Below, piece by piece: positions 21,630-41,332 of a stretch of DNA of 64,000 bases. The DNA comes from Nitrospirota bacterium. Its GTDB lineage: Bacteria > Nitrospirota > Nitrospiria > SBBL01 > JAADHI01. The stretch lies in the NCBI GenBank assembly GCA_029261195.1, contig JAJDBU010000059.1, positions 1 to 64,000 on the forward strand. The letters are read 5' to 3'. The translations under genes were made by a program, and so were the position numbers. The notes below the pieces were generated by a model, which ran no database searches, was not told the DNA's origin, and saw only the letters and a list, made by a program, of their open reading frames with translations. The number at the start of each line of letters is the position of its first letter. Positions within the stretch are counted from its first letter, which is position 1.

Positions 21630-22142
21630 TCACTTTGGGTGGCCTTGCATCTTTTTGTGAGGCAATCCGGGTTTTCCTTTCCGGTGTGCACCTGCACCGG
21701 CCATCTGCTTGTGCATCTGGGAGCGCTGTTCTTTTGTGAGTACCTTACGGGCCGCAAGTTTCACGCGAACCTCTTCCTTCATCAAAGTCGTCTTCAACTT
21801 GCCACGCTCTTCCACCTTTGCAAAGAGTTTATCTTCAGAGAGGTTCTCAGCATAAACGAGCTCCCCCATCTCCAGCTCGGCGATTGCAATATCCGCCTTC
21901 AAACGGATCTTCTTCTTTTTAAAATCTATGCTCATCGCCTTGAGATCTTTCCGCTGCTGATCGCTCAGGTGGAGCGCCTCGCCATGCTTTAAAATACGGG
22001 CAGCGCTGTCCATTTCTTGTCCGTATTTGCTCCGCTTGCCATACTCCCCCTTCGGTTTTTCAGCCATCGCGCCTGGAACCAGGACAATGACCATCAATAC
22101 ACTGAATAAAGAAATCATGGCTCTTCTGTAAGTCGTTTTCAT
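21630..22142 (-). CDS. Spy/CpxP-like periplasmic protein
   Basis: A 170-residue exported protein. A Sec signal peptide occupies about residues 1-27 (hydrophobic ISLFSVLMVIVLVP, cleavage after AMA), followed by an all-helical charged region with LSDQQRKDLKAM and LTKEQRSQM, matching the LTxxQ repeats of Spy/CpxP/ZraP proteins. These act as periplasmic chaperones or metal/stress sensors. ATG 22142 is chosen because GAGGGGGAAG lies just upstream; a longer reading adds eight residues. It follows the exported CobN-like C-half in the same direction and ends at a strong terminator. Confidence 0.75.
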   Translation of the reverse strand: MKTTYRRAMISLFSVLMVIVLVPGAMAEKPKGEYGKRSKYGQEMDSAARILKHGEALHLSDQQRKDLKAMSIDFKKKKIRLKADIAIAELEMGELVYAENLSEDKLFAKVEERGKLKTTLMKEEVRVKLAARKVLTKEQRSQMHKQMAGAGAHRKGKPGLPHKKMQGHPK

Positions 22143-22255
22143 TCTTCCCCCTCTTATTTTGGACAAGCCGATTGCTCATCCTCTTTAAGGGCGACCGCAT
22201 GGGCCGCCCAAATTTCAAAAACTCAATCCTGGAATCCGAATCAACTCCCCTGACC

Positions 22256-24007
22256 TCATGCAACTTCCTTCCGCCGGAATCCCTGCCAGAGCAGCATGAA
22301 AAGGGTCAGAGCCAGGAGCAATCCAACGATCGAAAAGGTGATGACCTGCTTCTGCCGGGCCGCTTCTTCCTGCTTCTCCATCTTGAATCCCTCAACCACG
22401 TTCTCGCTCGCTGCCAACTTCTCCATCGCCTCCTGATATTGCGGCATCAAGGCGGCGCCGGCGACATTGCCGGGGGCATTCAAGACCTCTTTGACGACCC
22501 GATCGAGGGCCTGATTTGCTGCCGTCCGGGCACTTGCGGAAGAGCCGTGTGCCGCCACCGATTCGGCATAGGCGTTCACCAGTTCCTGTTTGATCGTATC
22601 CGATGCATCCCAGTATCCCTTCCGGATCGTCTCGATCATAATTGCCGTCAGATCCTGAAAGGCGTAGGGGTTTTCCTTGTCAAACCACTCCCGCAATTCA
22701 AGATTGTATTTGTCCTTGTGGTAAATCTCGTAGGCCTCTTCCCACATGTAGTCATCAACCAGGGCCGGTTTTGTGATCTGCCAGCCGAAGAGGTTGCCCG
22801 TCATCCGCGCCATCTCGGCCGCGCCGGAGAAGTCGTGTTCTTGATTCCCTTCAATCCATTTTGGGTTGAAGTAGCGGGTCCGCGCCTCGGCCATGAGGGC
22901 TTCCTTCAGGTTCATCATCACCGGCTTTGTCGGGTCACGTGTATCGGAGAAGACCCCTTCAGGGTCTTTGCCTGTGACCTGCCGAATCGCCATGATCATC
23001 CCGCCCATGTATTCAAAGACATGGTCGAGCTGCATCGGGCCTCCGGTCAGGTTGGAGGAACGGCTGTGAACGACGACTTCCGTATCCTGCAATCCGGTCT
23101 CGTAGAGTCCCTCGTAGAACTCTCCCCAGAGATCCTTGTGATAGACCGCCCCCTGACGTTCAAGATAAAGATTCACCAGTTTTTCGTCATCCTCGTAGGT
23201 ATCGCTACGTGCAATTGCGCCGGTGAGACCGGTGCCATACATGCCGGGCGGTCCGCCGAAAATCCGCGCAGCCGAAAGCGCCCGCGCCTGTTTCGGGGCA
23301 AAACCCTTTTCTTTAAGCTGCTGTTCCATCTTCAGCGTTCCCGCTTTGACGAAGTTGTCTTCTCCCTGATCCTGGGCATTATTGGCCATCGTCACGGCCT
23401 CATCAATCAGGGCCATTCGGGAGGGAAAGACATCCCGGTATTGACCCGCCGCCAGGACAACGACATCAATACGAGGCCGTCCCAATTCCTCCGCCGGGAT
23501 CAGTTCCAATTCGCGGACATTGTTGCGCTTTGTCCAGATCGGGCGAACGCCGAGCAGGTAGAGGATTTCCGACATCGTCACCCCATGTTGCCGCACCGTC
23601 TCCGTACTCCAAAGGTTGAAACCGATCTTTTTGGGGTAACGCCCCAGCTCGCCGACCTTCTTCGCCAAGAGATCCTCCGTCAGCTTCATCCCGACCCGCC
23701 AGGCCGCCTTGGTGGGCACCTCTTCCGGATTGATCGCATAGAGGTTCTTTCCAGTGGGCAGGGCCTGGGGAGAACGGATCGGATCGCCCCCCTGCCCCGG
23801 CGAGACAAATCCCCCATCCAGTCCATGCAGGGCCGCCTCGATTTCTTTTTCAGATTGTTGATAATCCGACAGGTAGCGCTCTGCTTCAGCAAGATGTTCG
23901 CTGAGACTGAGCAAGGGGGATGTTTCCCACTCATCGGCATGGATCGTCTGGGAAAAACCCACACCAACTAAAAGCAAGATAGAAAGCATTGTGATGAGAT
24001 GTTTCAT
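22256..24007 (-). CDS. Exported CobN-like metal-chelatase, C-terminal half
   Basis: A 583-residue protein equal to the C-terminal part of CobN/BchH-family chelatases: PTGKNLYAINPEEVPTKAAW, RIFGGPPGMYGTGL, HSRSSNLTGGPMQLDHVFEY and HDFSGAAEMARMTGNLFGW are all diagnostic. It carries its own signal peptide (about residues 1-25, TIHA-DE cleavage) and a C-terminal membrane helix (about 557-575) followed by RRKE, so it is anchored with its body in the periplasm. AGGAGG lies just before ATG 24007. The N-terminal half is encoded 3.3 kb upstream on the same strand. The closest functional analogue I know is membrane-anchored HmuS of haem-uptake operons, not cytosolic cobalamin CobN. Confidence 0.88.
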   Translation of the reverse strand: MKHLITMLSILLLVGVGFSQTIHADEWETSPLLSLSEHLAEAERYLSDYQQSEKEIEAALHGLDGGFVSPGQGGDPIRSPQALPTGKNLYAINPEEVPTKAAWRVGMKLTEDLLAKKVGELGRYPKKIGFNLWSTETVRQHGVTMSEILYLLGVRPIWTKRNNVRELELIPAEELGRPRIDVVVLAAGQYRDVFPSRMALIDEAVTMANNAQDQGEDNFVKAGTLKMEQQLKEKGFAPKQARALSAARIFGGPPGMYGTGLTGAIARSDTYEDDEKLVNLYLERQGAVYHKDLWGEFYEGLYETGLQDTEVVVHSRSSNLTGGPMQLDHVFEYMGGMIMAIRQVTGKDPEGVFSDTRDPTKPVMMNLKEALMAEARTRYFNPKWIEGNQEHDFSGAAEMARMTGNLFGWQITKPALVDDYMWEEAYEIYHKDKYNLELREWFDKENPYAFQDLTAIMIETIRKGYWDASDTIKQELVNAYAESVAAHGSSASARTAANQALDRVVKEVLNAPGNVAGAALMPQYQEAMEKLAASENVVEGFKMEKQEEAARQKQVITFSIVGLLLALTLFMLLWQGFRRKEVA

Positions 24008-24112
24008 TTTGACCTCCTGTTTGTAATCCTATGAAAATATTTTTTCCGCTCTTTTGTGGTAGTTCTTAAAAAGATAAAGTACAATTGTTCCAAAACGACA
24101 TGGAGGCACACG

Positions 24113-24307
24113 ATGTTTAAAATCCATAAAAGCTTCGTTGTAGATGAACACCGGAAACCGGTTGCGGTGCAGATTCCAATCGAAGAATATGAACGCCTGG
24201 AAGAGATCCTCGAAAACCACGGCTTATCCAAATTGATGGATGAAACAACAGATGATGAAGGGCTTTCTGTCGAAGAGGCCAAAGCGTATTACCAGTCATT
24301 GAAGTAA
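24113..24307 (+). CDS. Lone Phd/YefM- or RelB-like antitoxin
   Basis: A 64-residue protein. The N-terminal AVQIPIEEYERLEEILENHGL segment resembles antitoxins of the Phd/YefM and RelB groups, and the acidic C-terminus (DETTDDEGLSVEEAKAYY) would be the toxin-binding tail. ATG 24113 is preceded by TGGAGG. No toxin gene follows: the next gene, tlpA-like, is convergent 60 bases away. It may be an orphan or solitary regulator. Confidence 0.6.
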   Translation: MFKIHKSFVVDEHRKPVAVQIPIEEYERLEEILENHGLSKLMDETTDDEGLSVEEAKAYYQSLK

Positions 24308-24367
24308 AATTTTGATCCATCAACGCATTGCACACCGCAAAGATATTTATCGGGGATTTCCTTAAAA

Positions 24368-24946
24368 TTACATCAAGCCGCGAATAAACCGCCGACTCGC
24401 TTTGTCATCCCATTTTGCCGGCCCCACATGTTTGAAGACAATATTGCCCTCAGAATCGATGATCATCGTCAACGGTATTCCTTTTGATATGAAAATATCG
24501 GGAAAATTCCTATCGGACAGATAAAAGGGCAGACTGTATTTTTCCTTTTCCACAAAATTGCGAACGACCGCCTCCTCTTCGTCAGAGACAAGAAGGAAGG
24601 CAACTTCCTCGTCTTTCATTGCATCGTAAAGTTTTTGGATATTCGGCATCTCGGCCAGGCAAGGCTTGCACCATGTCGCCCAGCGGTTCAGAAAAACGAC
24701 CTTGCCGGAAAACTCGGAAAGGGTGATTTCTTTGCCATCAAGGTCTCTGATGGGCCAATCCTGATCCGCCTGGCCGTAAATCGTCAGCTTCGACTGCTCG
24801 GGGTACTGTGGCGCTGAAAGCAGCAATTCCTTATTGCCAGTACGCATTGTGAAAAAAAGGTGTACGCCAAGAGCAATCAAAACCAGCGCAAGGACTGCAC
24901 CGGTGATCATGCCTTTTATGAACTTTTTATTGAAACGCGAGGTCAT
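24368..24946 (-). CDS. TlpA/ResA-like membrane-anchored thioredoxin
   Basis: A 192-residue protein with an N-terminal membrane anchor (about residues 12-33) and a periplasmic thioredoxin fold. The active site is CKPC (Cys93, Cys96) in RWATWCKPCLAEMP, followed by VAFLLVSDEEE and the cis-Pro region GIPLTMIID. TlpA-type proteins reduce periplasmic disulfides, often in cytochrome or metal-cofactor maturation. Its start overlaps the stop of the S41 peptidase gene by four bases. The pair is inserted between the two halves of the CobN-like gene. Confidence 0.88.
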   Translation of the reverse strand: MTSRFNKKFIKGMITGAVLALVLIALGVHLFFTMRTGNKELLLSAPQYPEQSKLTIYGQADQDWPIRDLDGKEITLSEFSGKVVFLNRWATWCKPCLAEMPNIQKLYDAMKDEEVAFLLVSDEEEAVVRNFVEKEKYSLPFYLSDRNFPDIFISKGIPLTMIIDSEGNIVFKHVGPAKWDDKASRRFIRGLM

Positions 24947-26541
24947 ATCTCGTCCTTATCTATTTCTTGAATCACCCAGTCGTAAACGGGATCGCGTCCT
25001 TCGAAAAAATCATCGATGGTCGTCGGCACCGCTACATCCGGGAAAAAGGACGGTTCGTCACGTTTTGTCCTGTCGGGCCGGTAGAATGCCTTGTAGGAAA
25101 GAGAGAGGTGGATGCTGGTGTTGGGAAGTTTTAGAAAAAGCATGTCGCCGAAGGCATCCGGTTTCTGGCCCGTGGGCTCACCGACAACTGTGCCCAGTCC
25201 GTTATCGATCATGAACCCCGTCAACATCCCCGCAGAACTGTAGGTCCCGGGGCCGATCAAGAGATAAACCTTCCCTGCAAACTTCTCCTTCGGTTCTTCC
25301 ATAAAAGAGACATTTTCCTTATCGGCAATGCTGTCGAAGAAGTCCTCCCCATCGGTTCTGGCCCCGACCACAGTCTGATGATGCAGGAAGGGGAGCGATT
25401 TCTCTTTGTTCTCCTCCATTTGTAAGATTTCTTCCACCTCGTCGGGTTCGTGAAGCCGGTAGAGTTCTGAGATTTTCACGGCGTTTGTAAAGTCTTTCAG
25501 GTCTTTCCTCTTCCCTGTATCCAAATGATAGAGCAACTGTTTAGCCATGGGGCCATACCCACCGCTGTTATTTCTCACATCAATGATGAACGTCCGAACG
25601 TTCTCATTCCGCATGGCATCGAACATCTCATCAAGAAATCCCCTGAAATCCACCGCACCCTTGTAGGCAAGGAAGAGGCGGAAGGGAAGCCGAAGGAACA
25701 TATTCATGTGGCTTGCTATTTGAGCATCCAAAAAATAATTGAACTGAAAATAACAGAGCTTGTATTCGGGGATGATTTTGTAAGAGAAGAATTTCCCGGT
25801 AGGTCCCATCACCGGATGTGCGGGGACTTGATTCAACCATTTGATCCGCTTTCGGGGAGAGAGGGTCAATACAAGTTCAACACCCGCTCGAGTGCGTATT
25901 CGCAGATCCAGGGTTTCCGAAGGGGAGGCAATACCAAGGGCCTTCAGAAAGAGGGAATCTGACAGGGATGCCGCCGCCCGCCTTCTACGCCAGATCGCGT
26001 TTTCAGAAGGAATGCTGTCAGACAATATCCCAAGCACCTCCTCTAGAGGCCGCTTTCCGATGGAAAGGACCTCTGCCCCGATCCACTCCGGATTAAGCGA
26101 CTCTCCGACATCTGTAAGATAAAGCGCATCGCCGAACCAACGGAATTTCACGAGGAACCGCTTTTTTGACTTATAAGAAGGTCTTAAGATCTGGGTATGG
26201 GAGTCACCGATCCGGGTGATGAAACTTGTCAGGATCAATTCAAATTGCATCTGGTCGGTAACGTCTTCCAGTTCAGAGAGAGCTGTATCCCGCTCTGTTT
26301 CAAATGCCTCCTTCTGAAGTTGATGGGTGACATCCGGATGGGCATCGGCCAGGACCGCTGCAAAATAGGCGAAATCTTTCTGAAAAGAATTGTATTGCCG
26401 GTATGCTTCCGTGTGCTCAATCGGGTGAGGCACGGTCTCCGAAGTCAGGTTCATGTAGATCCCTACCAGTGGACCACATCCCCAGGTTGAAGAGAGCGAT
26501 AAGACAACAAAAATAAACATCACGGTCTTAAATGCCTTCAT
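24943..26541 (-). CDS. S41-family peptidase lipoprotein
   Basis: A 532-residue protein whose N-terminus (MKAFKTVMFIFVVLSLSSTWGC) is a lipoprotein signal with the Cys at about residue 22. The C-terminal half is an S41 (C-terminal processing) peptidase domain: DVRNNSGGYG and the nucleophile Ser in GTYSSAGM. No PDZ domain is obvious. ATG 26541 is chosen because it begins the signal peptide; a longer reading adds 30 unlikely residues. The gene overlaps tlpA-like downstream and is divergent from vapBC. Substrate unknown. Confidence 0.85.
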   Translation of the reverse strand: MKAFKTVMFIFVVLSLSSTWGCGPLVGIYMNLTSETVPHPIEHTEAYRQYNSFQKDFAYFAAVLADAHPDVTHQLQKEAFETERDTALSELEDVTDQMQFELILTSFITRIGDSHTQILRPSYKSKKRFLVKFRWFGDALYLTDVGESLNPEWIGAEVLSIGKRPLEEVLGILSDSIPSENAIWRRRRAAASLSDSLFLKALGIASPSETLDLRIRTRAGVELVLTLSPRKRIKWLNQVPAHPVMGPTGKFFSYKIIPEYKLCYFQFNYFLDAQIASHMNMFLRLPFRLFLAYKGAVDFRGFLDEMFDAMRNENVRTFIIDVRNNSGGYGPMAKQLLYHLDTGKRKDLKDFTNAVKISELYRLHEPDEVEEILQMEENKEKSLPFLHHQTVVGARTDGEDFFDSIADKENVSFMEEPKEKFAGKVYLLIGPGTYSSAGMLTGFMIDNGLGTVVGEPTGQKPDAFGDMLFLKLPNTSIHLSLSYKAFYRPDRTKRDEPSFFPDVAVPTTIDDFFEGRDPVYDWVIQEIDKDEI

Positions 26542-26607
26542 GACCATTCTCTTTCTGAATAATGGAAGCAATGCCACGCTTGTTGCCGCCCGCTTGACCA
26601 GAAGTGG

Positions 26608-26634
26608 TGTATGCGGTAACGTACAACACATACA
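26608..26634. promoter_or_regulatory. Possible VapB autoregulatory inverted repeat
   Basis: TGTATG (26608-26613) and CATACA (26629-26634) form 6-base arms separated by 15 bases, 23 bases before the vapB start and within the divergent region shared with the S41 gene. Ribbon-helix-helix antitoxins usually bind such a repeat. Position and symmetry are the only evidence. Confidence 0.4.
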
Positions 26635-26656
26635 TTGAAAGGAGGTGTATTGCTAT

Positions 26657-26893
26657 ATGAAGCGCACACAAATTCTTCTTGAAGAGGCTCAATACCTGCA
26701 ATTGAAGGACGAGGTATCGGCAACCGGGAAAAGCCTGTCGGAAATTGTCCGGGATTCCATTGCCTCTCACCTCAGAGAGAGGGAAAAGGACCCTCTGTTT
26801 GATATCGTGGGCTCGGTCAAATCTCAAAAAGATCCGGCTCCGGCCGATCTTGGGGCACAACATGATCAATACCTCTACGGAGAAAAAATGTGA
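26657..26893 (+). CDS. vapB: VapB-type ribbon-helix-helix antitoxin
   Basis: A 78-residue antitoxin. The N-terminal KRTQILLEEAQYLQLKDEV and KSLSEIVRDSI segments give the ribbon-helix-helix DNA-binding fold; the C-terminus is the flexible toxin-binding tail. A GGAGGTG ribosome site lies ten bases before ATG 26657. Its stop overlaps the toxin's GTG start by four bases, so the two are translationally coupled. The pair faces the CobN-like N-half in convergent orientation. Confidence 0.85.
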   Translation: MKRTQILLEEAQYLQLKDEVSATGKSLSEIVRDSIASHLREREKDPLFDIVGSVKSQKDPAPADLGAQHDQYLYGEKM

Positions 26894-27285
26894 TCTTTGC
26901 CGATACAGGCGCCTTCGTCGCGCTTCTGAGGGAGAAGGATCAGCATCACCCTTCCGCCAGGAAATTTCTGACAAAACGAACCCTCCTGGTCACGACCGAT
27001 TACATTGTGGATGAGACCGTGACCCTTCTCTTGACGCGGGTCAGCCGCACGGCTTCGGAACAGTTCCTGCGTATGATCCAGCAAAGCCGCTTTGTCCGGC
27101 TCGAAATGATTGGGCCGGAGACTTTCGAAGAAGCTTCGCGCATCTTTCTTCATCACCACGATAAGGCCTGGAGCTTTACCGATTGCACATCGAATGCCGT
27201 CATGAAGCGCCTCAAAATCACCCAGGTCTTTGGCTATGATGCCCATTTCGAGCAGATGGGCTTCTCTCTTGTCCCGGGGAAATAG
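26890..27285 (+). CDS. vapC: VapC-type PIN-domain toxin ribonuclease
   Basis: A 131-residue PIN-domain protein. The acidic metal-binding residues are visible as Asp5 (FADTGAF), Glu42 (VDETV) and Asp98 (SFTDCTS). VapC toxins cleave tRNA or rRNA when released from VapB. GTG start at 26890 overlaps the vapB stop (GTGA). It ends nine bases before the stop codon of the convergent CobN-like N-half. Confidence 0.88.
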   Translation: MIFADTGAFVALLREKDQHHPSARKFLTKRTLLVTTDYIVDETVTLLLTRVSRTASEQFLRMIQQSRFVRLEMIGPETFEEASRIFLHHHDKAWSFTDCTSNAVMKRLKITQVFGYDAHFEQMGFSLVPGK

Positions 27286-27294
27286 CCTGGCACA

Positions 27295-29580
27295 TTACTC
27301 CCTCGCAGCCATCACCTTCTTCAATGCCGCTTCCTGCGTCAGACCATCGACCAACACATACCTCAGTAATGCTTCGCCTTTCTCTTTTGCAATCTCGTGT
27401 TTCGTCTCCTCGTCAACCGTCTCTTCAAATGGCAAAATCTCTGCTAAGGTTTCAAGGTAGTTGTCTCCGATCATGCTTCGGACAATCGGAACCAAGGCGT
27501 CTGTCTCCGGGACTTTTCCGTGGACATGAAGACCATCCGGCATCTTTTCCGCCGCCAGACGGTGGAGGTAGGCATCGACCTCTTTAATCTGGTCTTCAGT
27601 CATGAGTCCCTCTTTGATTGTGATGCCGAGGTCAAGATCGAGTTTTAATTCGGTAAATTTGTTGGTGACATCCCGGCTGTATTCCACCTTCAGCATCCCG
27701 TCATCTGCATTCTTGTAGTGATGGATCAGGTTCTGAAGGACCTTCAGGTCGCCGTAGATATCGGCCTCGACCAGGGGCGGGGTGAGATAACTGACGATGG
27801 CGGCATAACTCCGGTGTTTCGCCGTCAAGGCCTCTCCCACATCATCCATGATGTAGACATAGATATTCGGCATCGTCCCGACCAGGAGGTCTCCCCAGTC
27901 ATCCCCGGTCATGATCGCCGGTTTGCCAGGAAGGAATTCCAGGTTGCCATGTGTTCCGTAATGAACCAGTCCTTCTGCTTTAAAGCCTTTTTCCAGCCAG
28001 AAGTAGACGGCTAAATACTGATGGGGCGGAGGCGTGGCATCGGCGCCGTAGATGGTTTCGTCATCTTCATCGCCGCCCTTTCCAGGCTGCGGAAGAAGCA
28101 CCACATTGCCCATCGGAACCTGAGGAATCACGAGGTACTCCTTTCCCTCTTTGATATAAACCATGCCGTTTCCGGGCGCTTCGCCATGGGCCTTGATCAC
28201 CCGTTCCTGATTTTTAGGAGAGAGAATTTCTTTGAACCAGGCTTTATAGGTCTCGAGCGGGAGCATCACCACCTGCTCGTTTTTGACGAGGCGTTCCAAC
28301 TCGCCCGGTGCCCAGCTACCGACATTTCTACCGAAGGAATCAACCATCGCCCGAAGGGCATCTTTGTCGGGAATGTCGTTTACCTGATAGCCCGCTTTTT
28401 TCATCCGCTCTAAAAAAGTGACTAAACTTGGATAGACATCTAAACCGCCGCCGCCGATGTCTCCCTTGCCCGGCCCGGCGTAATAGACAATCGCCACACG
28501 CTTGTTCGGGTTGGAGGTTCTTTGCAGGCGAATCCAGCCCAGGGTTCGCTCGACCACCCGTTCGATCCGTTCCGGGATCGGCACCCGGATTGCGTAACCC
28601 TCATCATTCACGCCCCGCCCGGCAATGGCCATGGGCTCAACCGCACCGTCCAGCTCGGGGACACTCACATTCATCGCCATGCCCCGCCCGTTCGGCTTTT
28701 TCCCGCCCGTCATCCAGTCTTCAACGGTTTCAGAAAGCCAGGTGGAATGGATGAGGGGGATGTCGTTTTCTTCAAGGAAGGCCGGTCCCTGATTCCCCTG
28801 CCAGCGGCCATGAGCACGGGTGACGATGGCATCGGTCTTGGCCTCTTTGATCATCTCTAAACGCTTTTCACGACCGAAGATGGCTGCGACACGAACCCCC
28901 TCTTTTTCAAAACGGCGGATGACGGCATCGGTCGTGGCCGTATCGCCCGTCTGCCAACCGACACTACCTGTCATGACAACCATCGGAGATTCTGCTTTAT
29001 ATCCCTCCTGCGCTTTGTACCACTTGTCGTAGTCACTGTAAGAGGTGAAAATATCTTCAGAATCAGGATGATAGATACCGTCGCTCGGTGTCGGGATGGG
29101 CGCTTCGACTTGACCGGAAGCATTGCTGAATTGAATGTCTGAGTAGCTCAGCAGACGTTTGTAATTCTCCAGTCCGCCATAACGCCAATAATCCATGAGC
29201 TCGGGATGCTCTGCTTTTAGATCGACATTGGAGACCTGTTGAACGAGATCCCGATTCCCTCCAAGTGCAACCACCTTTGTTCCCTTAGCCTTCATCTGAT
29301 CCAGAGCCTTGGTCACCGCCTCATTGATATTCAGGCCGTGGACATTCAGGTAGATCAGATCGTGGGAAGGCAGGTCCTCACCCAACAGCCGATCCGGTGA
29401 AATCCCCGCGACACGGATGCCGGTTTTTTCGCTTGCCTTGGCCAGGAGCATCATTCGCGGCCCGTCAAAGCCGATCAAACCGATCTTTGCTTCACTATTT
29501 GCGGTCAGGCGAAAGGCCGCAATCATGACGATGGCGGCAATTGCGATTGCGCTAAAATACCGAACTTCTTTTCGTGCCAT
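27295..29580 (-). CDS. Membrane-anchored CobN-like metal-chelatase, N-terminal half
   Basis: A 761-residue protein with an N-terminal signal anchor (about residues 8-23) and a large periplasmic body of the CobN/BchH chelatase family. Conserved landmarks are IGLIGFDG, IVYYAGPGKGDIGG, and the diagnostic HYGTHGNLEFLPGK. It stops just before the region that begins the separate C-half (22256-24007); together they total about 1340 residues, the usual size of one CobN/HmuS chain. AAGGAGG precedes ATG 29580, and the start lies inside the apbE gene (29-base overlap), showing it is co-translated with apbE. Likely role: metal insertion into, or removal from, an imported tetrapyrrole such as haem. Confidence 0.88.
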   Translation of the reverse strand: MARKEVRYFSAIAIAAIVMIAAFRLTANSEAKIGLIGFDGPRMMLLAKASEKTGIRVAGISPDRLLGEDLPSHDLIYLNVHGLNINEAVTKALDQMKAKGTKVVALGGNRDLVQQVSNVDLKAEHPELMDYWRYGGLENYKRLLSYSDIQFSNASGQVEAPIPTPSDGIYHPDSEDIFTSYSDYDKWYKAQEGYKAESPMVVMTGSVGWQTGDTATTDAVIRRFEKEGVRVAAIFGREKRLEMIKEAKTDAIVTRAHGRWQGNQGPAFLEENDIPLIHSTWLSETVEDWMTGGKKPNGRGMAMNVSVPELDGAVEPMAIAGRGVNDEGYAIRVPIPERIERVVERTLGWIRLQRTSNPNKRVAIVYYAGPGKGDIGGGGLDVYPSLVTFLERMKKAGYQVNDIPDKDALRAMVDSFGRNVGSWAPGELERLVKNEQVVMLPLETYKAWFKEILSPKNQERVIKAHGEAPGNGMVYIKEGKEYLVIPQVPMGNVVLLPQPGKGGDEDDETIYGADATPPPHQYLAVYFWLEKGFKAEGLVHYGTHGNLEFLPGKPAIMTGDDWGDLLVGTMPNIYVYIMDDVGEALTAKHRSYAAIVSYLTPPLVEADIYGDLKVLQNLIHHYKNADDGMLKVEYSRDVTNKFTELKLDLDLGITIKEGLMTEDQIKEVDAYLHRLAAEKMPDGLHVHGKVPETDALVPIVRSMIGDNYLETLAEILPFEETVDEETKHEIAKEKGEALLRYVLVDGLTQEAALKKVMAARE

Positions 29581-30640
29581 TGCTTTTCCTCCTTGTTGAA
29601 AAATTCTTATTGAAAAGTTCTGTCCACCCCGCCGTCGTCTCCAACTGAGGGGAATTCACATTTCCTGAGTCTGAGGCCACAACAAGCCCATCTACTTTTT
29701 TCTCTTTTAAATAATGCACTCCCTCCTCCAGCCCGAGGACAAAGGCTGCGGTTGAATAGGCATCGGCTTCTGTCGCTGAATGGGCCACGACGGCAGTCAT
29801 CGCCACGCCTTCAACCGGTCTGCCCGTCCGGGGATCAAGGATATGGCTATAACGCTTCCCAGAAAACTCAAAAAAACGCTCGGCATCACCGGAAACCGAT
29901 AAGGCTTTGTCTCTAAGTCGGATGGTCCCGAATGCTTTCTTTTTTTTGAAGGGATGACGGAGGCCGACCAACCAGCTTGTCTTATCCGGCGGATACCCGA
30001 TCGCAAGTTGAACAGACTGAAAATCAAGCAGCGCCGCTTCAATCCCCGCCTCCCGAAGACTCTTCGCGGCTTGATCGAGGGCGTAGCCTTTTCCGATTGC
30101 GCCAAGGTCGATCTCCATGTTCTCCCTATTGAGCCGGATGCGGTTCTTTTCCATATCCATATCGATTTCGATCCCTTGATACCCGGTTAATGACATTAAT
30201 TTGAGGCGTTCTTTTTCAGAGGGAATGCGCCCTTGTTTCCGAAAAAATCCCCAGCCCTTCATTAGAGCGCCGACAGTGATATCAAAAGCCCCGTGCGTCT
30301 CTTCTGATATCTGCCTGGAAACGGAGAGAATTTCCAGCAGTTCAGATGGGGCAGAGACGGAAGTCATCGCACCCACTTGATTGATCTTTGAAACCAGACT
30401 GTTCGGATCGTAATGGCTCATGAGATGGTCCAAATCTTTGATTTTTTTAAAGGCCTTTTCAAGGGCCATCCGCGTCTTTTGCTCATCTTCTCCATAGGCC
30501 GTAATCGTGCAGAGGGTCCCCATGACCTCTTCTTCTTGAACAATGCGGACATAGCTCCCCACTCCTGGAGAGGCAGTCCGGTAAACCGACCAGAGCAGGA
30601 TTAAAACAAATACGATGATTCCGATGGAGATGCGGTTCAT
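29552..30640 (-). CDS. apbE: FAD:protein FMN transferase ApbE
   Basis: A 362-residue ApbE protein with an N-terminal membrane anchor (about residues 5-21). Conserved segments are DLGAIGKGYALD, SGDAERFFEFSGKRYSHILDP and the metal/FAD motif TEADAYSTA. ApbE attaches FMN to Ser/Thr in the periplasm; the RnfD/NqrB-like protein at 31548-32417 is the obvious local target. Its start overlaps the PhyH-type gene by four bases and its end overlaps the CobN-like gene by 29, so the three are tightly coupled. Confidence 0.93.
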   Translation of the reverse strand: MNRISIGIIVFVLILLWSVYRTASPGVGSYVRIVQEEEVMGTLCTITAYGEDEQKTRMALEKAFKKIKDLDHLMSHYDPNSLVSKINQVGAMTSVSAPSELLEILSVSRQISEETHGAFDITVGALMKGWGFFRKQGRIPSEKERLKLMSLTGYQGIEIDMDMEKNRIRLNRENMEIDLGAIGKGYALDQAAKSLREAGIEAALLDFQSVQLAIGYPPDKTSWLVGLRHPFKKKKAFGTIRLRDKALSVSGDAERFFEFSGKRYSHILDPRTGRPVEGVAMTAVVAHSATEADAYSTAAFVLGLEEGVHYLKEKKVDGLVVASDSGNVNSPQLETTAGWTELFNKNFSTRRKSNGTKRSSVF

Positions 30641-31547: not shown

Positions 31548-32417
31548 TCATCTCCGGCAAACCTTATTAATTAAGGGTGTCAATCCATTCATTGCCAAAA
31601 TCCCATAGGCGACTCCTTCTGATGGGATCTTTGTAAACTCCCGGATCAGGACGATGACCACGCCCAGCCACAATGCGTGAATCACCCTTCCAAGCGGCGT
31701 GTGGGGCGAAATCGCAATATCGGTCGCCATAAAAAAAGCACAGAGGAACAAACCTCCCGATGAAACTTGTAGAAGTGGATCTCCGCCATAAAGAAACGAA
31801 AGTAGCCCAACTGTCGCAAAGAGCACTACCGGAACGCGCCAGTCGATCGCCCGACGGATCATCAGAAAAAATCCCCCGAGAAGGAGCGCCCCGCCGCTGC
31901 TCTCTCCAATCGACGCGCCGACTGCTCCCGTTCCCAATTCAATGAATCTTTCCTGAAGGGAAGGCGTAATCTGAAGCGCCGCCCGTTGCAAGGGGGTGGG
32001 TCCGCTCATCGCATCAAGCCCTAATGAATACCCCATAAAGAGACTGGGGAAGAGGGCCACCAAAGCAACAATCCCGACAATGGCCGGATTGAAAATGTTT
32101 TTAAATCGGCCTCCAAAAGCCATTTTCCCCAGTCCTAACCCGACAATCGACCCAAAGACAGGCACCCACAAGGGGGCCGAGGGGGGAAGAATCAAACCGA
32201 CCAATCCTCCGGTGATGAGTGCGCCTCCCCGAATTTCGAGACGCTGTTTTGTCAGGAAGGCAACCAGCCATTCAAAGCTCTGGGCAGAAAACATGGCAAT
32301 CGTCACGATGATGAGGGCCTCTGTGCCATAGCGATAGACCCCTGCCGCAAGTGCGGGCAACAAGGCAAGCAATGTTTCCCGTTTGTGGCGGCTGATTTGG
32401 ATGTGGATTCGGTTCAA
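31548..32417 (-). CDS. RnfD/NqrB-like flavin-site membrane protein
   Basis: A 289-residue polytopic membrane protein of the NqrB/RnfD/RseC-type family with about nine to ten helices. The FMN attachment site is recognisable as DAMSGPT (Asp135-Thr141), where family members usually have SGAT; Thr141 would be flavinylated by ApbE encoded in the same operon. NPAIVGIVALV and TDIAISPHTPLGR are further family landmarks. There are no other Rnf/Nqr subunits here, so it is a stand-alone flavoprotein, probably moving electrons across the inner membrane to a periplasmic acceptor. Confidence 0.85.
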   Translation of the reverse strand: MNRIHIQISRHKRETLLALLPALAAGVYRYGTEALIIVTIAMFSAQSFEWLVAFLTKQRLEIRGGALITGGLVGLILPPSAPLWVPVFGSIVGLGLGKMAFGGRFKNIFNPAIVGIVALVALFPSLFMGYSLGLDAMSGPTPLQRAALQITPSLQERFIELGTGAVGASIGESSGGALLLGGFFLMIRRAIDWRVPVVLFATVGLLSFLYGGDPLLQVSSGGLFLCAFFMATDIAISPHTPLGRVIHALWLGVVIVLIREFTKIPSEGVAYGILAMNGLTPLINKVCRR

Positions 32418-32420
32418 GAA

Positions 32421-32513
32421 AAAATCCCCCTCAATCCCCCTTTATCAAGGGGGAAGTTTTTGAAACAAGAAAAGGCAATTCCCCCCTTATGAAGGGGGGA
32501 TAGGGGGGATTTT
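32421..32513. repeat. C/G-rich inverted repeat element (MITE/REP-like)
   Basis: A 93-base element with outer inverted ends AAAATCCCCC (from 32421) and GGGGGGATTTT (to 32513). Inside are two further palindromes, TCCCCCTTTATCAAGGGGGA (32435-32454) and CCCCCCTTATGAAGGGGGG (32481-32499). This form resembles the dispersed palindromic repeats of many environmental genomes. It covers the 3' end of the DUF2149 gene and supplies that protein's last residues (KIPPIPPS) and stop codon. Only one copy is in the window. Confidence 0.75.
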
Positions 32514-32894
32514 CATTCTTCCCCCTTCGGGGACGTAGACCACTTCTCCCGAATCGAGCTTGTAGGCGGTGCCCAGTTTCTTTCCCGATCCTCCGGAGCT
32601 TTGGTCTGTTGCCTTGTAATGCTCCAGTTTCTTCCCTTTTTTGACGACGATTTCCATGTCGGGCTGTCCCGCATTCTTGATAATCGTCAGCGTGTCATCC
32701 TTGCTGAGCAGTTCCGGCATCCGAAACTGGGTCACCAGGGCGACGAGAAAGGCCAGGGCGAAGACAAAGGCCACGTCAAAGAGGTTTGCCAGCATCGCCA
32801 TGGGATCGGGCATCGCTTTTGATGCCAGTGCTCTAGGCCGAAGCCGTTTCCCTGAAGGCTTTTTTACTATCCATCTTTCTGAAGGCGGGGTCAT
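32487..32894 (-). CDS. DUF2149 family protein (ExbD-like partner)
   Basis: A 135-residue protein with one membrane helix (about residues 36-54) beginning NLFDVAFVFALAF, where the Asp sits as in ExbD and MotB proton-binding helices. The C-terminal periplasmic part contains GTAYKLDSGEVVYVPE, the DUF2149 hallmark. AAGGAG before ATG 32894 sets the start, which means a 62-base overlap with the ExbB-like gene upstream. The last eight residues are encoded by an inserted repeat. DUF2149 proteins accompany MotA/TolQ/ExbB and CobN-like genes in haem-type operons. Confidence 0.85.
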   Translation of the reverse strand: MTPPSERWIVKKPSGKRLRPRALASKAMPDPMAMLANLFDVAFVFALAFLVALVTQFRMPELLSKDDTLTIIKNAGQPDMEIVVKKGKKLEHYKATDQSSGGSGKKLGTAYKLDSGEVVYVPEGGRMKIPPIPPS

Positions 32895-33489
32895 TTGCTA
32901 TCTCCTTTATCTGCTGTGTTTTTGTTTCTTCTATTTCTGCTACATGTGCTTGACCCAGCAGGCGGTTGGCCATTCGGTTGATCTCCCGGAGTTCCAAGTC
33001 ATACCAGCGTCTTCGGACGGTGCCCACCCAAAGGGACAGCGCCGAGGTGGCTAGACCAATGACCGTTGTCGTAAAGGCGACGACCAGTTTTTTTGCCAGG
33101 GTTTCCATGTCTCCACCGGATAAGGCCATCAGGGCCGGGCCCAGCGGGATCAAGGTCCCCATCAGACCGAGCATCGGGGCAACGCGGCAGCAGAGGTCCG
33201 TCTTCTCCAGCTTGCGGGTCATGTGATCAGCTGTTGCATCAATCAGATCATCCATCTTGAGCATCGCTTCCTCTTCGGATTGACTCACTCGAACGACCTC
33301 AAAAAATTGCCCTTCCAGTTTTTCAGTCAGGGCCGTTTTTGTCTTATTCCGTCGGCGACGTTCCAGGGTTTCTCTCAGGAAATCGCCCATTGTCAGCAGG
33401 CTCCACCCGAAAAGCCCGATCAGCAGAACAATCACAGGAATCAGGAAGGCAGAAGAGAGGGTGTACAAAATGGTTGTAAATGCAGTCAT
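32833..33489 (-). CDS. MotA/TolQ/ExbB proton-channel protein
   Basis: A 218-residue inner-membrane protein with a first helix at about residues 12-33 and two further helices at about 107-160 (PMLGLMGTLIPLGPALMAL, AFTTTVIGLATSALSL), the ExbB/TolQ plan. With the DUF2149 protein it would form an ExbB/ExbD-like energiser, either for the TonB-dependent receptor upstream or for the chelatase itself. Its start overlaps the preceding membrane-protein gene by four bases. Confidence 0.9.
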   Translation of the reverse strand: MTAFTTILYTLSSAFLIPVIVLLIGLFGWSLLTMGDFLRETLERRRRNKTKTALTEKLEGQFFEVVRVSQSEEEAMLKMDDLIDATADHMTRKLEKTDLCCRVAPMLGLMGTLIPLGPALMALSGGDMETLAKKLVVAFTTTVIGLATSALSLWVGTVRRRWYDLELREINRMANRLLGQAHVAEIEETKTQQIKEIANDPAFRKMDSKKAFRETASA

Positions 33490-34211
33490 GTGTGACTCCT
33501 TTTTGAAAATATCCGGACGATGTTCGGCAGAACAAAACCAAGGGCAATGATCACTAAAACCGCTCCGATCATCAGAACTGTGGTTTGCCCGGGAAAGTTA
33601 AAATCTCCCGTCTCCATGGGTCTTAAATTTAAGGTGGCGGGGAGAAGAATGGAGAGGGCTGCCACCACAATATGGACAAGAATAAAACCGATGAGCGACT
33701 CATCCGGAAGCAGAATCGCCCGACGGCCCAGCCAACGGATCAGCAGCGCGAATAAAATGAATCCACCGGCGAGAACGATCCCGACCTCTGAGCCCTGTCG
33801 GGCGACGAATTCGGTTTGAATCATTCCGACGGCAAGGATCATCCAAAAACAAAGCACCGGAGAGGGAAAGAGCAGGAGCAGAGGGCGTAAAAACCGCTTC
33901 ACCCGAAGCATCACTCTCCCCCCGGACAGTGGGTTTTCCTCACGCGAAAAGGAGAGGGACGTGCGAATCAGGATGAATGAAAGGGAGAGCTCCGCCATCT
34001 GAAAGAGAATCAGCTTTTCTTCATCAAGAAACCAGAGTAGCCAATCCTGAGAGGCCATCGATTCCGAGAAACTTCCCAGGAAAAAACCGATTGTGATATA
34101 TGCAAGCGTCATCAATAATAAATGACGTTTTTTCGGCCTTAGCTGTAAAAAGATGCCAAGACCCAAACGGGCGGATAGAATCAAAGCTATGAATGCGATT
34201 AAGATCAACAT
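33486..34211 (-). CDS. Seven-TM membrane protein (DUF2162-like)
   Basis: A 241-residue protein with seven hydrophobic segments and few charged loops. The opening helix, ending in SARLGLGIFLQLRPKK, resembles DUF2162 predicted transporters that accompany CobN/ExbB/DUF2149 genes; this assignment is from memory and tentative. ATG 34211 is preferred to a GTG 12 bases upstream that has its purine-rich site too close. It overlaps the ExbB-like gene and follows the receptor gene by 35 bases. Confidence 0.7.
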   Translation of the reverse strand: MLILIAFIALILSARLGLGIFLQLRPKKRHLLLMTLAYITIGFFLGSFSESMASQDWLLWFLDEEKLILFQMAELSLSFILIRTSLSFSREENPLSGGRVMLRVKRFLRPLLLLFPSPVLCFWMILAVGMIQTEFVARQGSEVGIVLAGGFILFALLIRWLGRRAILLPDESLIGFILVHIVVAALSILLPATLNLRPMETGDFNFPGQTTVLMIGAVLVIIALGFVLPNIVRIFSKRSHT

Positions 34212-34246
34212 TGTCTTCAGCACTCTCCGGCAGGAATGATTAGGTC

Positions 34247-36457
34247 CTACCCAATTTCAAAACTGACATTAAAAAAGTAAGTCCGCTTCAGGCCGTCGAG
34301 GACTGAAAAGGGCTCGTGATAGACCTCGTCGCCCAGGTTTCGTATGCCAGCGTTGAAACTGATCTCCGAATTTTTTTTTGTCGGATATTTAAAACCCGTA
34401 AAAAGATCCGCGACAAAAAATTCATTGAAGCCTTCTTTCTGATCCACGCTGGGGGTATTCGTCACATAACGGCCCTTGATCCGGACCCATGGCCTGGCCG
34501 TCCAGACTGAAAAATAACGCTTGTAATAAAAAGAAACTTCGAGCGGATTCGAATCGACAATCACCACATCCTTGTCGGCCGGGTCATGCACATCGCGGAC
34601 ATCAAAATCGTTCATACCGAAATTAAGTCCCGCTTCATAGTCCTCTTCCCGGACCCGTTTTAAGGACACTTCAAAACCGCGATTGACCACCCGCTTGACA
34701 TTAAAATAGGGGAAATCACTTGCAAAAAATTCATCCTCCCGATCATTGAATTCCCCATTGGGGGGATCGCAGTCACCCTGGCGGATACAGTCTTGAAGGG
34801 CAGGCAAATTAATAATCCGCGTCCGTTGCTTACGCGTGATGTAGTTGTCAAAATCGCTGTGAAAGACCGAAACCGAGGCGAAGAAGAGGCCATCGTAGAA
34901 TTTCCAGGCGGCCTCGAAGTTATCGGCCTCCTCTGGTCGGCAGCGCAGACCGCAGCCCTTAAAATTATCGAAGGCAAAGCGCTCGAAGAGGGAGGGATAG
35001 CGGTGGGTTCTGCTGTAATTGAAGGAGAGGTTATGTAAAGGGTTGAGCGCATAAATCACGCCGGTGGCATAGGTCGTAGCCGTCTTGCTCAAGGCATCAA
35101 ACTCACCGGTATCGACATTGAATTGTCCCTCTACATTTACAAGATCGTTCACAATCGAAGGATCCCGTCCCGGCAGAAGCTTTGCCCGTACCTCCCAATG
35201 GTTTGCCCGGACACCGGCAAGAAAGGTGAGGTCCTTATGCAGATGCTCCGCACTCACATAGCCCGCCACATAGTTCTGCTCGGAAAAGACCCGTGTATCG
35301 GCCTGATCATCCACAAACTCCCCCCCGAACGTCAGTGTTGTATTGTTGATCGGGATGACGCTGCTAAAATTGATACTCTCGCTTTCGAGGATCGTTCGGG
35401 CCACGACCACACGCCGGGTCAATTCCTGATCGGCATAGGAGAGGCTGATATCCTGAAAAACGCCGAGGTTCTTAATTTGGTAGCGGGCCTGATGCGATTT
35501 CCGGGTGAGTAAATCAACCTGAGAGATGGTCGAGTCCACGTCAGCACGATTGGAAAAGATGTCTCTCGCTTCGTAATCCGTATGCTGAAAGGAGAGCTTA
35601 TGCTTCGCATTGATACGATAGCCCAGGTGAAGACTGAGAGATTCATCCTCAAAACCCAAACCCTTGATTTCAAACGGCGTCCCCAAGCGCTCTTCCCGTT
35701 CATTCGTCCGACGGATTGCGACATCCAGCTTTGCCCGGTTTTTGATCTTGTAGTCATCGGCATCGGTCTGGCTGTATGAAAGGGCGGCGCCGAAACCGGA
35801 TCTTGCACCGGAGAGGGAGGTGGCATGCTTTGTTTTTTCAGTGCCGTCGTCATAGCCGAAGGTGTATTTCAGCTTCAGGTGGTCTTCCTCAGTGATATCC
35901 TTCGTCTCCACCAGAATAATGCCGCCGGTCGCTCCCGGATCATAGACGACTGCCGGAGAGCCTTTCACGATTTCGATTGACTCGACGGTTGAGATATCGA
36001 CCAGATTGATCTCCCCACCGCCGCGATAGGTCATCCCCTGATTGGAAAGACGGACACCATCGACATAGGAGATGATCCGGTCACCAGAGAGGCCGCGGAT
36101 CTCGATGCGTTTTGTAAAGGCCCCCGACTCCCGGACCGTGACATTCGGCAGTTCTTTTAAGGCTGACTTGACATCGGGGATTGACTCTTCTTCGATCTTA
36201 TCGGAGAAGACTTTCTCCCGGGTAAAAGACTCCTCGAAAGAGGTCTCCAGGTCGACTATAGACTTTTCGACTTCCTTCTCCGCTTCAACCTCCAGGGTAT
36301 CAAGGACAATCGGTTCCTCTTCTTCAGCGCCAGCCGTCTGAAGTCCGGGGACAAAGGACAGAAAAATCAAAAGAAACAGAACTGGGAGGAGGGCCGGAAG
36401 CCCTCCTCCCATATTGTCTCCCAGACGGATGAAACCGCGTCGGCGCAGCTTAGTCAT
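34247..36457 (-). CDS. TonB-dependent outer-membrane receptor (haem/cobalamin type)
   Basis: A 736-residue receptor: signal peptide (KLRRRG followed by a hydrophobic stretch, cleavage near TAGA), a TonB-box-like segment IVLDTLEVEA, a plug domain (SALKELPNVTVRE, RIEIRGLSGDRI, GGEINLVDISTVESIEIVKG) and a 22-strand barrel. The NYSRTHRYPSLFERFAF region matches the FRAP/NPNL area of haem receptors. Two Cys pairs (GCGLRC, DCIRQGDC) lie in probable outer loops. ATG 36457 overlaps the lipoprotein stop; an ATG at 36412 has a better ribosome site but would remove the charged signal-peptide N-region. Confidence 0.92.
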   Translation of the reverse strand: MTKLRRRGFIRLGDNMGGGLPALLPVLFLLIFLSFVPGLQTAGAEEEEPIVLDTLEVEAEKEVEKSIVDLETSFEESFTREKVFSDKIEEESIPDVKSALKELPNVTVRESGAFTKRIEIRGLSGDRIISYVDGVRLSNQGMTYRGGGEINLVDISTVESIEIVKGSPAVVYDPGATGGIILVETKDITEEDHLKLKYTFGYDDGTEKTKHATSLSGARSGFGAALSYSQTDADDYKIKNRAKLDVAIRRTNEREERLGTPFEIKGLGFEDESLSLHLGYRINAKHKLSFQHTDYEARDIFSNRADVDSTISQVDLLTRKSHQARYQIKNLGVFQDISLSYADQELTRRVVVARTILESESINFSSVIPINNTTLTFGGEFVDDQADTRVFSEQNYVAGYVSAEHLHKDLTFLAGVRANHWEVRAKLLPGRDPSIVNDLVNVEGQFNVDTGEFDALSKTATTYATGVIYALNPLHNLSFNYSRTHRYPSLFERFAFDNFKGCGLRCRPEEADNFEAAWKFYDGLFFASVSVFHSDFDNYITRKQRTRIINLPALQDCIRQGDCDPPNGEFNDREDEFFASDFPYFNVKRVVNRGFEVSLKRVREEDYEAGLNFGMNDFDVRDVHDPADKDVVIVDSNPLEVSFYYKRYFSVWTARPWVRIKGRYVTNTPSVDQKEGFNEFFVADLFTGFKYPTKKNSEISFNAGIRNLGDEVYHEPFSVLDGLKRTYFFNVSFEIG

Positions 36458-39810: not shown

Positions 39811-41190
39811 TTAAATGTCCTTGAACGCCGACCCGCCGTTCTTCCGCATTTGATCGGCTATGCTGGCAAGGTTGTTCATCCAACGGCCATTGACTTCCTC
39901 ATTATCCGTTCCGTGGGCCAGGAGGATGAGTGTTTCCTTCTTCGGGTTTTTGCTCAAGGCCTTGGCCCGCTCTAACATGACCTCGGCCACCAGCGGATCA
40001 TCCTCCGACCCGCCAAAGGTAGTGAAGACTACCGGGCTGGCAACACGTATCACTTTTCCGCCTCGGCGGTAAGCGCCATTCAATCCGAGGATGTATTCTG
40101 TTTTTTCACGGAAGGATGCGGCCAGGGAATAAATCCGAATGAGCATGATCGCTCGAACACCTCTCTTTTCCAGACGTTTGACTGCACGTTCAATCACTTT
40201 CGGATCGGCCATGCTAAATGCATATTCGATTTTATAGCGGTCTATGAGAGGCTCCAGATTTTCTCGGATTGTCTCGTTCCAGTTAAAATCGGAGCCGTGG
40301 GGCATCAGCACCACGCCGATTTCGTCATCGGACAGGGGAAGGCGGAGGTTCGCTTCCTTCTCCAGCCATATACCGACATTTTTATGAGGGATCACCCCTT
40401 TGCCATTGGCAACAATGTTGTCAAATTTTGAGATCTGTCGTTTAAGACGATTCCAGGAAGACATCATGTGGGTCGCCTTTCTCCCGAAATTAAAGGGGAC
40501 AACCACAACACGCTCTCCCTTCGCCCGATTGAGGGCAATTCTATCAACCACCCGATCAGAGGCTGCTTTGCGAACCGCTTTCTCGGCCACTCGGTCATAT
40601 AAAACAACAACCTCAGTCGCGCTGAATCCAAAAGAGCGATTTACTCGTTTCAGCATCGCTTCCAGATCCTCCTTGATTTCGGCCTCTTCCTGTTGGTTGC
40701 TTGCTCCGGAACCGACAACGACCAGTACCTCCTTAGAGGCTTTTTTGCTCAGGTCTTTGATTCGTTTTTTCAAGATCTCTTCGATGAGATAACTGCCATC
40801 CATCGTTTCGCCGATCTTCATCGGCACTCCCCAGGCCTGCGTATTTAAAACCCCAAGGGCCTTTTTATAGAGAATATTCTCGGGGGAGAGAAAGAGTGGA
40901 AGCACCCAGATTTTCCGAACCTGCTTCGCCTTGAGTACATTGACTCCGGCTGCAATATTTTTTGCCGTCTTCTTGCTTGTAGCAAAAACAAGCGCCGTTG
41001 CATATTCTTTTGAAAAGGCCTCGTAAGCATCCCGGACTTCTTCGTTCCCCAAAAACCCACGATCGGGTGCCACGACAAGGAAGCCGACTTCAGGATGAAT
41101 GACCTCAGCCATGAGCTGTGAAGGACCAAAGGGAATATACAAACCCGTAACAATCAAACTGAGCACCAGGATGTTTTTGACTCTTTGCAT
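39811..41190 (-). CDS. Exported CbiK/CbiX-like chelatase, truncated by in-frame TAA
   Basis: A 459-residue protein with a Sec signal peptide (about residues 1-28) and repeated sirohydrochlorin-chelatase-like lobes: lobe A around VLPLFLSPENILYKKALG, lobe B from VVLMPHGSDFNWNE, lobe C from LILLAHGTDNEEVN, the His in MPHG and AHG being the metal-site candidates. Lobe C is interrupted by TAA 39811-39813, after which the same frame stays open for 104 codons. GTGAGG lies before ATG 41190. Periplasmic CbiK homologues are known from sulphate reducers and bind haem. It opens the chelatase/receptor unit, behind a Fur-like box and a terminator-bearing leader. Confidence 0.75.
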   Translation of the reverse strand: MQRVKNILVLSLIVTGLYIPFGPSQLMAEVIHPEVGFLVVAPDRGFLGNEEVRDAYEAFSKEYATALVFATSKKTAKNIAAGVNVLKAKQVRKIWVLPLFLSPENILYKKALGVLNTQAWGVPMKIGETMDGSYLIEEILKKRIKDLSKKASKEVLVVVGSGASNQQEEAEIKEDLEAMLKRVNRSFGFSATEVVVLYDRVAEKAVRKAASDRVVDRIALNRAKGERVVVVPFNFGRKATHMMSSWNRLKRQISKFDNIVANGKGVIPHKNVGIWLEKEANLRLPLSDDEIGVVLMPHGSDFNWNETIRENLEPLIDRYKIEYAFSMADPKVIERAVKRLEKRGVRAIMLIRIYSLAASFREKTEYILGLNGAYRRGGKVIRVASPVVFTTFGGSEDDPLVAEVMLERAKALSKNPKKETLILLAHGTDNEEVNGRWMNNLASIADQMRKNGGSAFKDI

Positions 41191-41219
41191 TTCTTTCCTC
41201 ACTTTCATGTGCTTTAAAC

Positions 41220-41287
41220 AAAAAAAGCCCAAGGCTTTGTGACTTTGCCTTGGGCTTCTGGGTTCTAAATTGTGCTGACCGCTAGCC
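41220..41287 (-). promoter_or_regulatory. Leader element with conserved box and terminator hairpin, copy 2
   Basis: On the minus strand GGCTAGCGGTCAGC (41287-41274) is followed after 16 bases by the hairpin AAGCCCAAGGC/GCCTTGGGCTT (41257-41247 and 41235-41225) and seven T residues, ending 29 bases before the chelatase start codon. Box, hairpin arms and spacing match copy 1 at 39399-39468; the loops and flanks differ, so the conservation is selective. Placed between promoter and gene, it should act as a transcription attenuator. Confidence 0.8.
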
Positions 41288-41300
41288 GCTACATTCAGCT

Positions 41301-41319
41301 GCAACTGATAATCACTATC
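41301..41319. promoter_or_regulatory. Fur-like box
   Basis: GCAACTGATAATCACTATC, read on the minus strand as GATAGTGATTATCAGTTGC, matches 14 of 19 positions of the Fur consensus GATAATGATAATCATTATC. It lies just downstream of a candidate -10 for the chelatase/receptor unit, where repressor binding would block transcription, and would make the locus iron-responsive. Confidence 0.6.
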
Positions 41320-41332
41320 AATAACGAGGTGA

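Follow-up and report, generated by a model that had tools for sequence, protein, structure and literature searches.

The closest described protein is HmuS of Bacteroides thetaiotaomicron (BtHmuS; PDB 9d26/9p4s; Nath et al. 2025, PMC12583661), a single chain of ~1,400 amino acids (aa). Its His538 is essential by mutation, its domain IV linker carries a disordered methionine-rich insertion (residues 780–898), and a persistent 60-kDa proteolytic fragment was reported (PMC12583661). In laboratory work, HmuS of full length has proved unstable and subject to proteolysis (PMC12583661, PMC13227078). In a Nitrospirota bacterium (GCA_029261195.1; SBBL01, JAADHI01), a HmuS-type chelatase is coded by two separate genes on the minus strand of contig JAJDBU010000059.1. 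The stretch analysed, designated the window, comprises positions 1 to 64,000 of this contig (64,000 nucleotides), and the genome is 3.04 Mb in 77 contigs, 99% complete with 0.7% contamination. The pair was noticed in an original prediction made from the window sequence alone. More probably (about 0.72), the two genes encode a functional two-chain periplasmic haem de-chelatase, a reading favoured because of open reading frames (ORFs), kept invariant residues, a new signal peptide with its Shine-Dalgarno sequence, and ancestral membrane anchors. The binding of the chains to each other and their joint activity are what we infer from these features.

Anatomy and family of the two halves

The upstream gene (27295–29580, minus strand) codes for an N-chain of 761 aa that runs from a membrane anchor through head, neck, and domain III into the beginning of domain IV. 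The downstream gene (22256–24007, minus strand) codes for a C-chain of 583 aa with the remaining domain IV, domains V and VI, and a C-terminal anchor, both assignments being based on PF02514 and PDB 9d26. Both ORFs are intact, and the frames are uninterrupted across 1,344 codons, with no stop and no frameshift. The halves cover Pfam profile CobN-Mg_chel (PF02514) in a complementary way, at positions 2–637/651 (N-half, ~522 bits) and 676–1087 (C-half, ~522 bits), and are its sole matches in a profile search of the whole genome. The N-chain gene is preceded by the Shine-Dalgarno sequence aggagg (aaggagg in full) at 29588–29593 and the C-chain gene by a perfect aggagg at 24013–24018, both on the minus strand. 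Two intact ORFs with strong ribosome sites, as originally predicted, are thus present.

The N-terminal membrane anchor of the N-chain (~residues 7–28; 29497–29562, minus strand) is a hydrophobic stretch placed as in single-chain HmuS. A hydrophobic helix followed by an RRK tail ends the C-chain (22289–22348, minus strand) and is also present in the single-chain relatives. By hydropathy, both terminal membrane segments of HmuS are therefore kept, one per chain, and both chains should face the periplasm at the inner membrane, because these anchors are those of single-chain HmuS. The C-chain begins with a signal-peptide-like N-terminus (residues 1–24; 23936–24007, minus strand), read from the sequence as MKHLITMLSILLLVGVGFSQTIHA followed by DE, with predicted cleavage between IHA and DE; the single-chain relatives are without it. 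When the stretch ahead of the C-core was shuffled with its dinucleotides preserved, 2 of 20,000 shuffles yielded an in-frame start that was signal-like and had a good Shine-Dalgarno sequence, and the argument that the export signals favour function over decay holds. The opposite anchoring of the halves is not new in itself, as both anchors are the ordinary ends of single-chain HmuS and the internal signal peptide alone is new.

The best PDB match of the N-half is HmuS 9d26, residues 11–697 (E 1.6e-107), and that of the C-half is residues 930–1456 of the same entry (E 1.7e-118), CobN and ChlH being far weaker matches for both. Residues named in the cryo-EM paper on HmuS (PMC12583661) were mapped onto both halves by alignment. 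On the N-chain, the HGR motif of the head/neck haem site is kept as H257-G258-R259 (28804–28812, minus strand), the equivalent of the BtHmuS His254 haem ligand, and the HYGTHG motif (residues 540–545; 27946–27963, minus strand) has His544 in the place of catalytic His538. On the C-chain, the DHVFE motif (residues 328–332; 23012–23026, minus strand) has His329 and Glu332 in the places of His1209 and Glu1212. The catalytic histidines are on separate chains, and the HmuS motifs HGR, HYGTHG, and LDHxxE are all intact across the halves. DHxxE and HGR separate HmuS from its look-alikes, since exported CobN-like relatives have DD..Q at 1208–1212 and no HGR.

In a joined tree with cytosolic CobN as outgroup, the halves group with HmuS of Bacteroidota in a single clade (support 100) and adjoin acidobacterial HmuS (support 97). 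The tree and the catalytic residues of the aligned sequences support membership in the HmuS clade. Membership in the narrow sense of PMC12583661 is not claimed, because the methionine-rich insertion, Met79, and the single chain are missing: the chain break sits where the insertion would be, and the protein is coded by two ORFs 3.3 kb apart. Cytosolic CobN was considered as an identity and rejected on motifs, tree, and export signals and anchors. No AAA+ partner of CobS/CobT type is among the identified neighbour genes.

Both halves are under constraint. For comparison, 24 single-chain HmuS proteins were used: the fully read HmuS-clade members of one acidobacterial class, three Bacteroidota plasmid proteins, and one further acidobacterial protein (L052). 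Among the columns invariant in these, 56 of 63 are kept in the N-half and 71 of 76 in the C-half (127/139 in total), and the faces of domains III and V are conserved as much as in single-chain HmuS. The original description of the conserved chelatase motifs as intact in both halves is borne out.

Position of the cut and related systems

The N-part and C-part trees, computed separately, agree on where the halves belong: in each, the sister group is single-chain HmuS of Acidobacteria (support 100 in both). This identical position indicates that the halves derive from one gene, and fission of one gene is the simplest reading of the sequences. Branch lengths of the halves are 0.72 and 0.57 and do not exceed the path lengths to their single-chain sisters. 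The N-chain aligns with single-chain HmuS up to ~residue 705–711 and the C-chain from ~residue 49. The break is in the domain IV linker, and ~100 linker residues are gone between the halves. The C-terminal tail of the N-chain (residues 705–761; 27298–27468, minus strand), without a match in single-chain HmuS past ~705–711, stands in place of the start of the disordered linker. That the N-half ends just before the region where the C-half begins is correct for the aligned proteins; the genes themselves are 3.3 kb apart, separated by S41, tlpA, vapBC, and relB-like genes. The 60-kDa fragment of HmuS is of about the size order of the C-chain, and we conjecture that it arises from a cut in the same linker.

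The split protein resembles BtHmuS in the set and order of domains, the equivalents of His538, His1209, Glu1212, and HGR, the N- and C-terminal anchors, and hmuR/U/V-like neighbours. It differs in having two chains, no linker/methionine-rich insertion, and His for Met79, with 30–40% identity, and no hmuY was seen with it. The acidobacterial single-chain HmuS proteins (L003, VFZW01000193.1; L004, CAMATG010000170.1; and 18 others) are the sister group of both halves (97–100), with 41–48% identity to the C-half and 35–38% to the N-half, and ExbB and DUF2149 genes adjacent in most. They differ in being one ORF of ~1,285–1,400 aa, with a P/A/S/G-rich linker of 0–5 Met at the break of the split protein. 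A TonB receptor-like gene lies between hmuS and the DUF2149 gene in some Acidobacteria (L003, L131–L133), where the hmu order is reshuffled.

The gene is absent from 40 of 40 close relatives. Across the class (270 genomes), matches were otherwise limited to exported CobN-like proteins in seven genomes; 32 of 396 genomes of the phylum have some CobN-Mg_chel match, and 79 of 399 genomes of the acidobacterial class match the C-half. In this survey of class, phylum, and acidobacterial class, with Bacteroidota covered through plasmids, the split HmuS is a single example. Exported CobN-like proteins encoded next to TonB receptor genes, such as that of the Trichlorobacter lovleyi plasmid (L153), are membrane-anchored and accompanied by MotA/ExbB and DUF2149 genes as here, but they are single chains with DD..Q for DHxxE and no HGR.

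Cytosolic CobN-like proteins coded by two genes were found in six genomes of the same phylum (G086, G108, G112, G196, G221, G335), five from one genus and one from another family. Their cut coincides with that of the split HmuS in domain IV, and the N and C genes are adjacent in most, but they have CobN motifs and neither export signals nor anchors. Two AAA+ chelatase-type genes, recognized by sequence motif, adjoin them where the surroundings were read, and in several (among L017–L022, L066, L071) start and stop overlap. Acidobacterial two-gene cytosolic CobN-like proteins (G420, G486, G543, G608, G670, G750) are cut near profile position 545, unlike the split HmuS. In several genomes with an acidobacterial split cytosolic chelatase (among L054–L059, L076–L078, L083–L085), the C-part gene is ahead of the N-part gene. 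No described two-chain HmuS or split CobN was found in the literature. A split large subunit has precedents in the superfamily: two-gene large subunits exist as cytosolic CobN in two lineages, and what is new here is a HmuS split into two exported halves.

Explanations of the split

Anatomy and phylogeny place the cut in the disordered domain IV linker of an ancestral single-chain, periplasm-facing HmuS. In the order of events that we propose, ~3.3 kb of other genes came to lie at the cut, and the downstream half would have gained a start, a ribosome site, and a Sec signal peptide. The N-chain, tethered N-terminally, would carry the haem site of head and neck as well as domain III, in which His544 lies. 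Domains V and VI with His329/Glu332, and the face that binds the porphyrin, would come from the C-chain, held in the membrane by its C-terminal helix. Joined noncovalently at the periplasmic side of the inner membrane, the chains would re-form the central cavity; since each chain provides one of its two axial histidines, neither chain would work alone. By analogy with HmuS biochemistry, haem would enter via the TonB-dependent receptor powered by the HmuU/HmuV-like pair, be reduced, and then be split to Fe(II) and protoporphyrin IX. Should the pair be active, the domain IV linker, deemed a hallmark of HmuS, is dispensable as a covalent link; the roles of the catalytic histidines are open to study by complementation, being on different chains, and two shorter chains may be easier to produce than full-length HmuS.

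Several observations weigh against this reading. The split occurs in one genome only, and the other HmuS-clade proteins are all single-chain (24/24). There is no clean operon, as it is broken up by opposite-strand genes, vapBC and one that is relB-like. Some haem-contact positions are changed (Met79 to His81, Gln299 to Met303, and the loop I His506 equivalent lost), the acidobacterial single-chain sisters likewise being without Met79 and Gln299. No interface model of the halves was obtained, and the AlphaFold models, computed for each half singly with an alignment of three sequences (window, L003, L004), are of low confidence (mean predicted local distance difference test score 55 for N and 48 for C).

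A protein of the same clade and architecture could also act on another metal-tetrapyrrole or insert a metal, as an exported two-chain class I chelatase. The loss of Met79 and Gln299 conservation in this branch, the missing methionine-rich insertion, and an exported CbiX/CbiK-like protein encoded 3.3 kb upstream of the receptor would fit this, but the His1209/Glu1212 and HGR equivalents agree with HmuS and not with CobN, no AAA+ partner genes are nearby, unlike at split CobN loci, and receptor and HmuU/HmuV-like genes are alongside; we regard it as unlikely. Slightly less probable still is that a cassette of toxin-antitoxin, S41, and tlpA genes broke the gene and that both pieces are dead remnants with decay pending. 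The arrangement is unique to one genome, toxin-antitoxin genes are at both edges of the block, and the G+C content of the halves is 0.54–0.56 versus 0.42–0.54 for most of the block. Against decay are the 1,344 open codons, the 127/139 invariant positions with branches that are not accelerated, and the signal peptide and ribosome site, both of which export of the C-half needed anew and which are improbable by chance.

The halves might instead have separate functions, the N-chain as a membrane-tethered haem-binding or relay protein and the C-chain as a porphyrin-binding one, with no shared active site. The HGR head/neck haem site is indeed entirely on the N-chain and the porphyrin face mainly on the C-chain (PMC12583661), but both His544 and His329/Glu332, which serve no purpose without each other, have been retained and the faces of domains III and V are conserved as in single-chain HmuS, which makes this improbable. 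An assembly artefact, in which a misjoin placed foreign sequence within a normal single-chain hmuS, is the least credible explanation, even though the genome is in 77 contigs and hmuS of B. thetaiotaomicron was once mis-annotated as two loci through a frameshift error (PMC12583661). Neither the signal peptide nor the ribosome site at the cut can result from a misjoin, ~100 linker residues are gone, and the gap is filled by five intact genes. The original prediction was to fall if related genomes all had one continuous ORF and the split coincided with an assembly error; the related HmuS are continuous, but the new signal peptide, the ribosome site, and the intact genes in between show that the split is no assembly slip.

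Neighbouring genes and possible electron supply

The block between the halves begins, next to the N-half, with a vapB-vapC-like pair (26645–27285, plus strand; PIN 8.4e-11, RHH_1 0.017 and below cut-off), the vapC gene extending up to the end of the N-half. An S41-family lipoprotein peptidase gene follows (24943–26541, minus strand, start probably at 26541; Peptidase_S41 4.8e-16; lipobox-like STWGC), and then a gene for a TlpA/ResA-like membrane-anchored thioredoxin (24368–24946, minus strand; Redoxin 3.5e-19). Between the latter and the C-half is a RelB-like antitoxin gene (24113–24307, plus strand; RelB-like 8.9e-29), without an obvious toxin, which with the vapBC-like pair marks the edges of the block. 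The starts of the S41 gene and the C-half each adjoin a divergent toxin-antitoxin-type gene (vapB and relB, respectively). Because these opposite-strand genes lie between the halves, the C-half probably has its own promoter or depends on read-through. The G+C content of the block, mostly below that of the halves, fits an insertion at the linker; a repeat footprint was sought at the block edges and none was found.

Upstream of the N-half, on the same strand as both halves, are genes for ApbE, a PhyH-like protein, a lone RnfD/NqrB-like protein, a DUF2149 protein, MotA/ExbB, a 245-aa membrane protein, and a TonB-dependent receptor. Of the hmu set (hmuY, R, T, U, V), R-, U-, and V-like genes are present, T is represented by position only, and Y was not seen at the locus. 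The receptor (34247–36550, minus strand; TonB_dep_Rec 6.1e-29, Plug 4.3e-18) is HmuR-like by position. A multi-pass membrane protein at the HmuT position (33486–34223, minus strand) had no BLASTP match to HmuT/DUF2162. The HmuU-like MotA/TolQ/ExbB protein is coded at 32833–33489 (minus strand; MotA_ExbB 6.8e-13) and the HmuV-like DUF2149 protein at 32487–32894 (minus strand; DUF2149 3.9e-32), with at most ~50% identity to DUF2149 proteins of hmu loci.

HmuS activity requires a reductant, and its physiological donor is left open in both PMC12583661 and PMC13227078, the latter, on P. gingivalis, suggesting membrane quinones or flavoproteins. ApbE attaches flavin mononucleotide (FMN) to periplasm-facing electron carriers (PMC8238504). 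At this locus, an ApbE FAD:protein FMN transferase (29552–30640, minus strand; ApbE 4e-79) is accompanied by the RnfD/NqrB-like membrane protein (31548–32417, minus strand; NQR2_RnfD_RnfE 2.7e-75), the only one found in a search of this genome. The latter has SGPTPL at what we take to be the place of the SGAT-type flavinylation motif of RnfD/NqrB. The lone RnfD-like protein with ApbE, which lie with PhyH between the hmuV-like gene and the N-half, is one testable candidate for a flavin-based physiological electron donor of HmuS. It is a lead only, because homologues of RnfD and ApbE, as well as of S41 and TlpA, were sought around the 24 other HmuS genes and not found. A more elaborate scheme appears doubtful: in it, the de-chelatase would be a two-component, separately transcribed system, in which the ApbE-flavinylated RnfD-like protein would pass electrons across the membrane to the haem in the head/neck of the N-chain and docking of the C-chain would complete the active site, so that iron would be released only when electrons are supplied and the two chains are assembled.

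Two near-identical palindromes (TCCCCCTT...AAGGGGGA) are between the DUF2149 and RnfD-like genes at 32425–32500 and may be terminators or repeats separating two transcripts. The protein coded at 39811–41304 has CbiX similarity (6e-8), weak CbiK similarity, and a signal-like N-terminus, and from its sequence it is apparently an exported class II chelatase. A Fur-like site was sought upstream of the receptor; the sole near match was the Fur-box-like TGATAATCACTATCA (41306–41320, one mismatch), which immediately precedes the CbiX-like gene, and matches are about as numerous as expected by chance. The gene that directly follows the C-half, at 21630–22166, codes for a CpxP/metal-resistance-like periplasmic protein.

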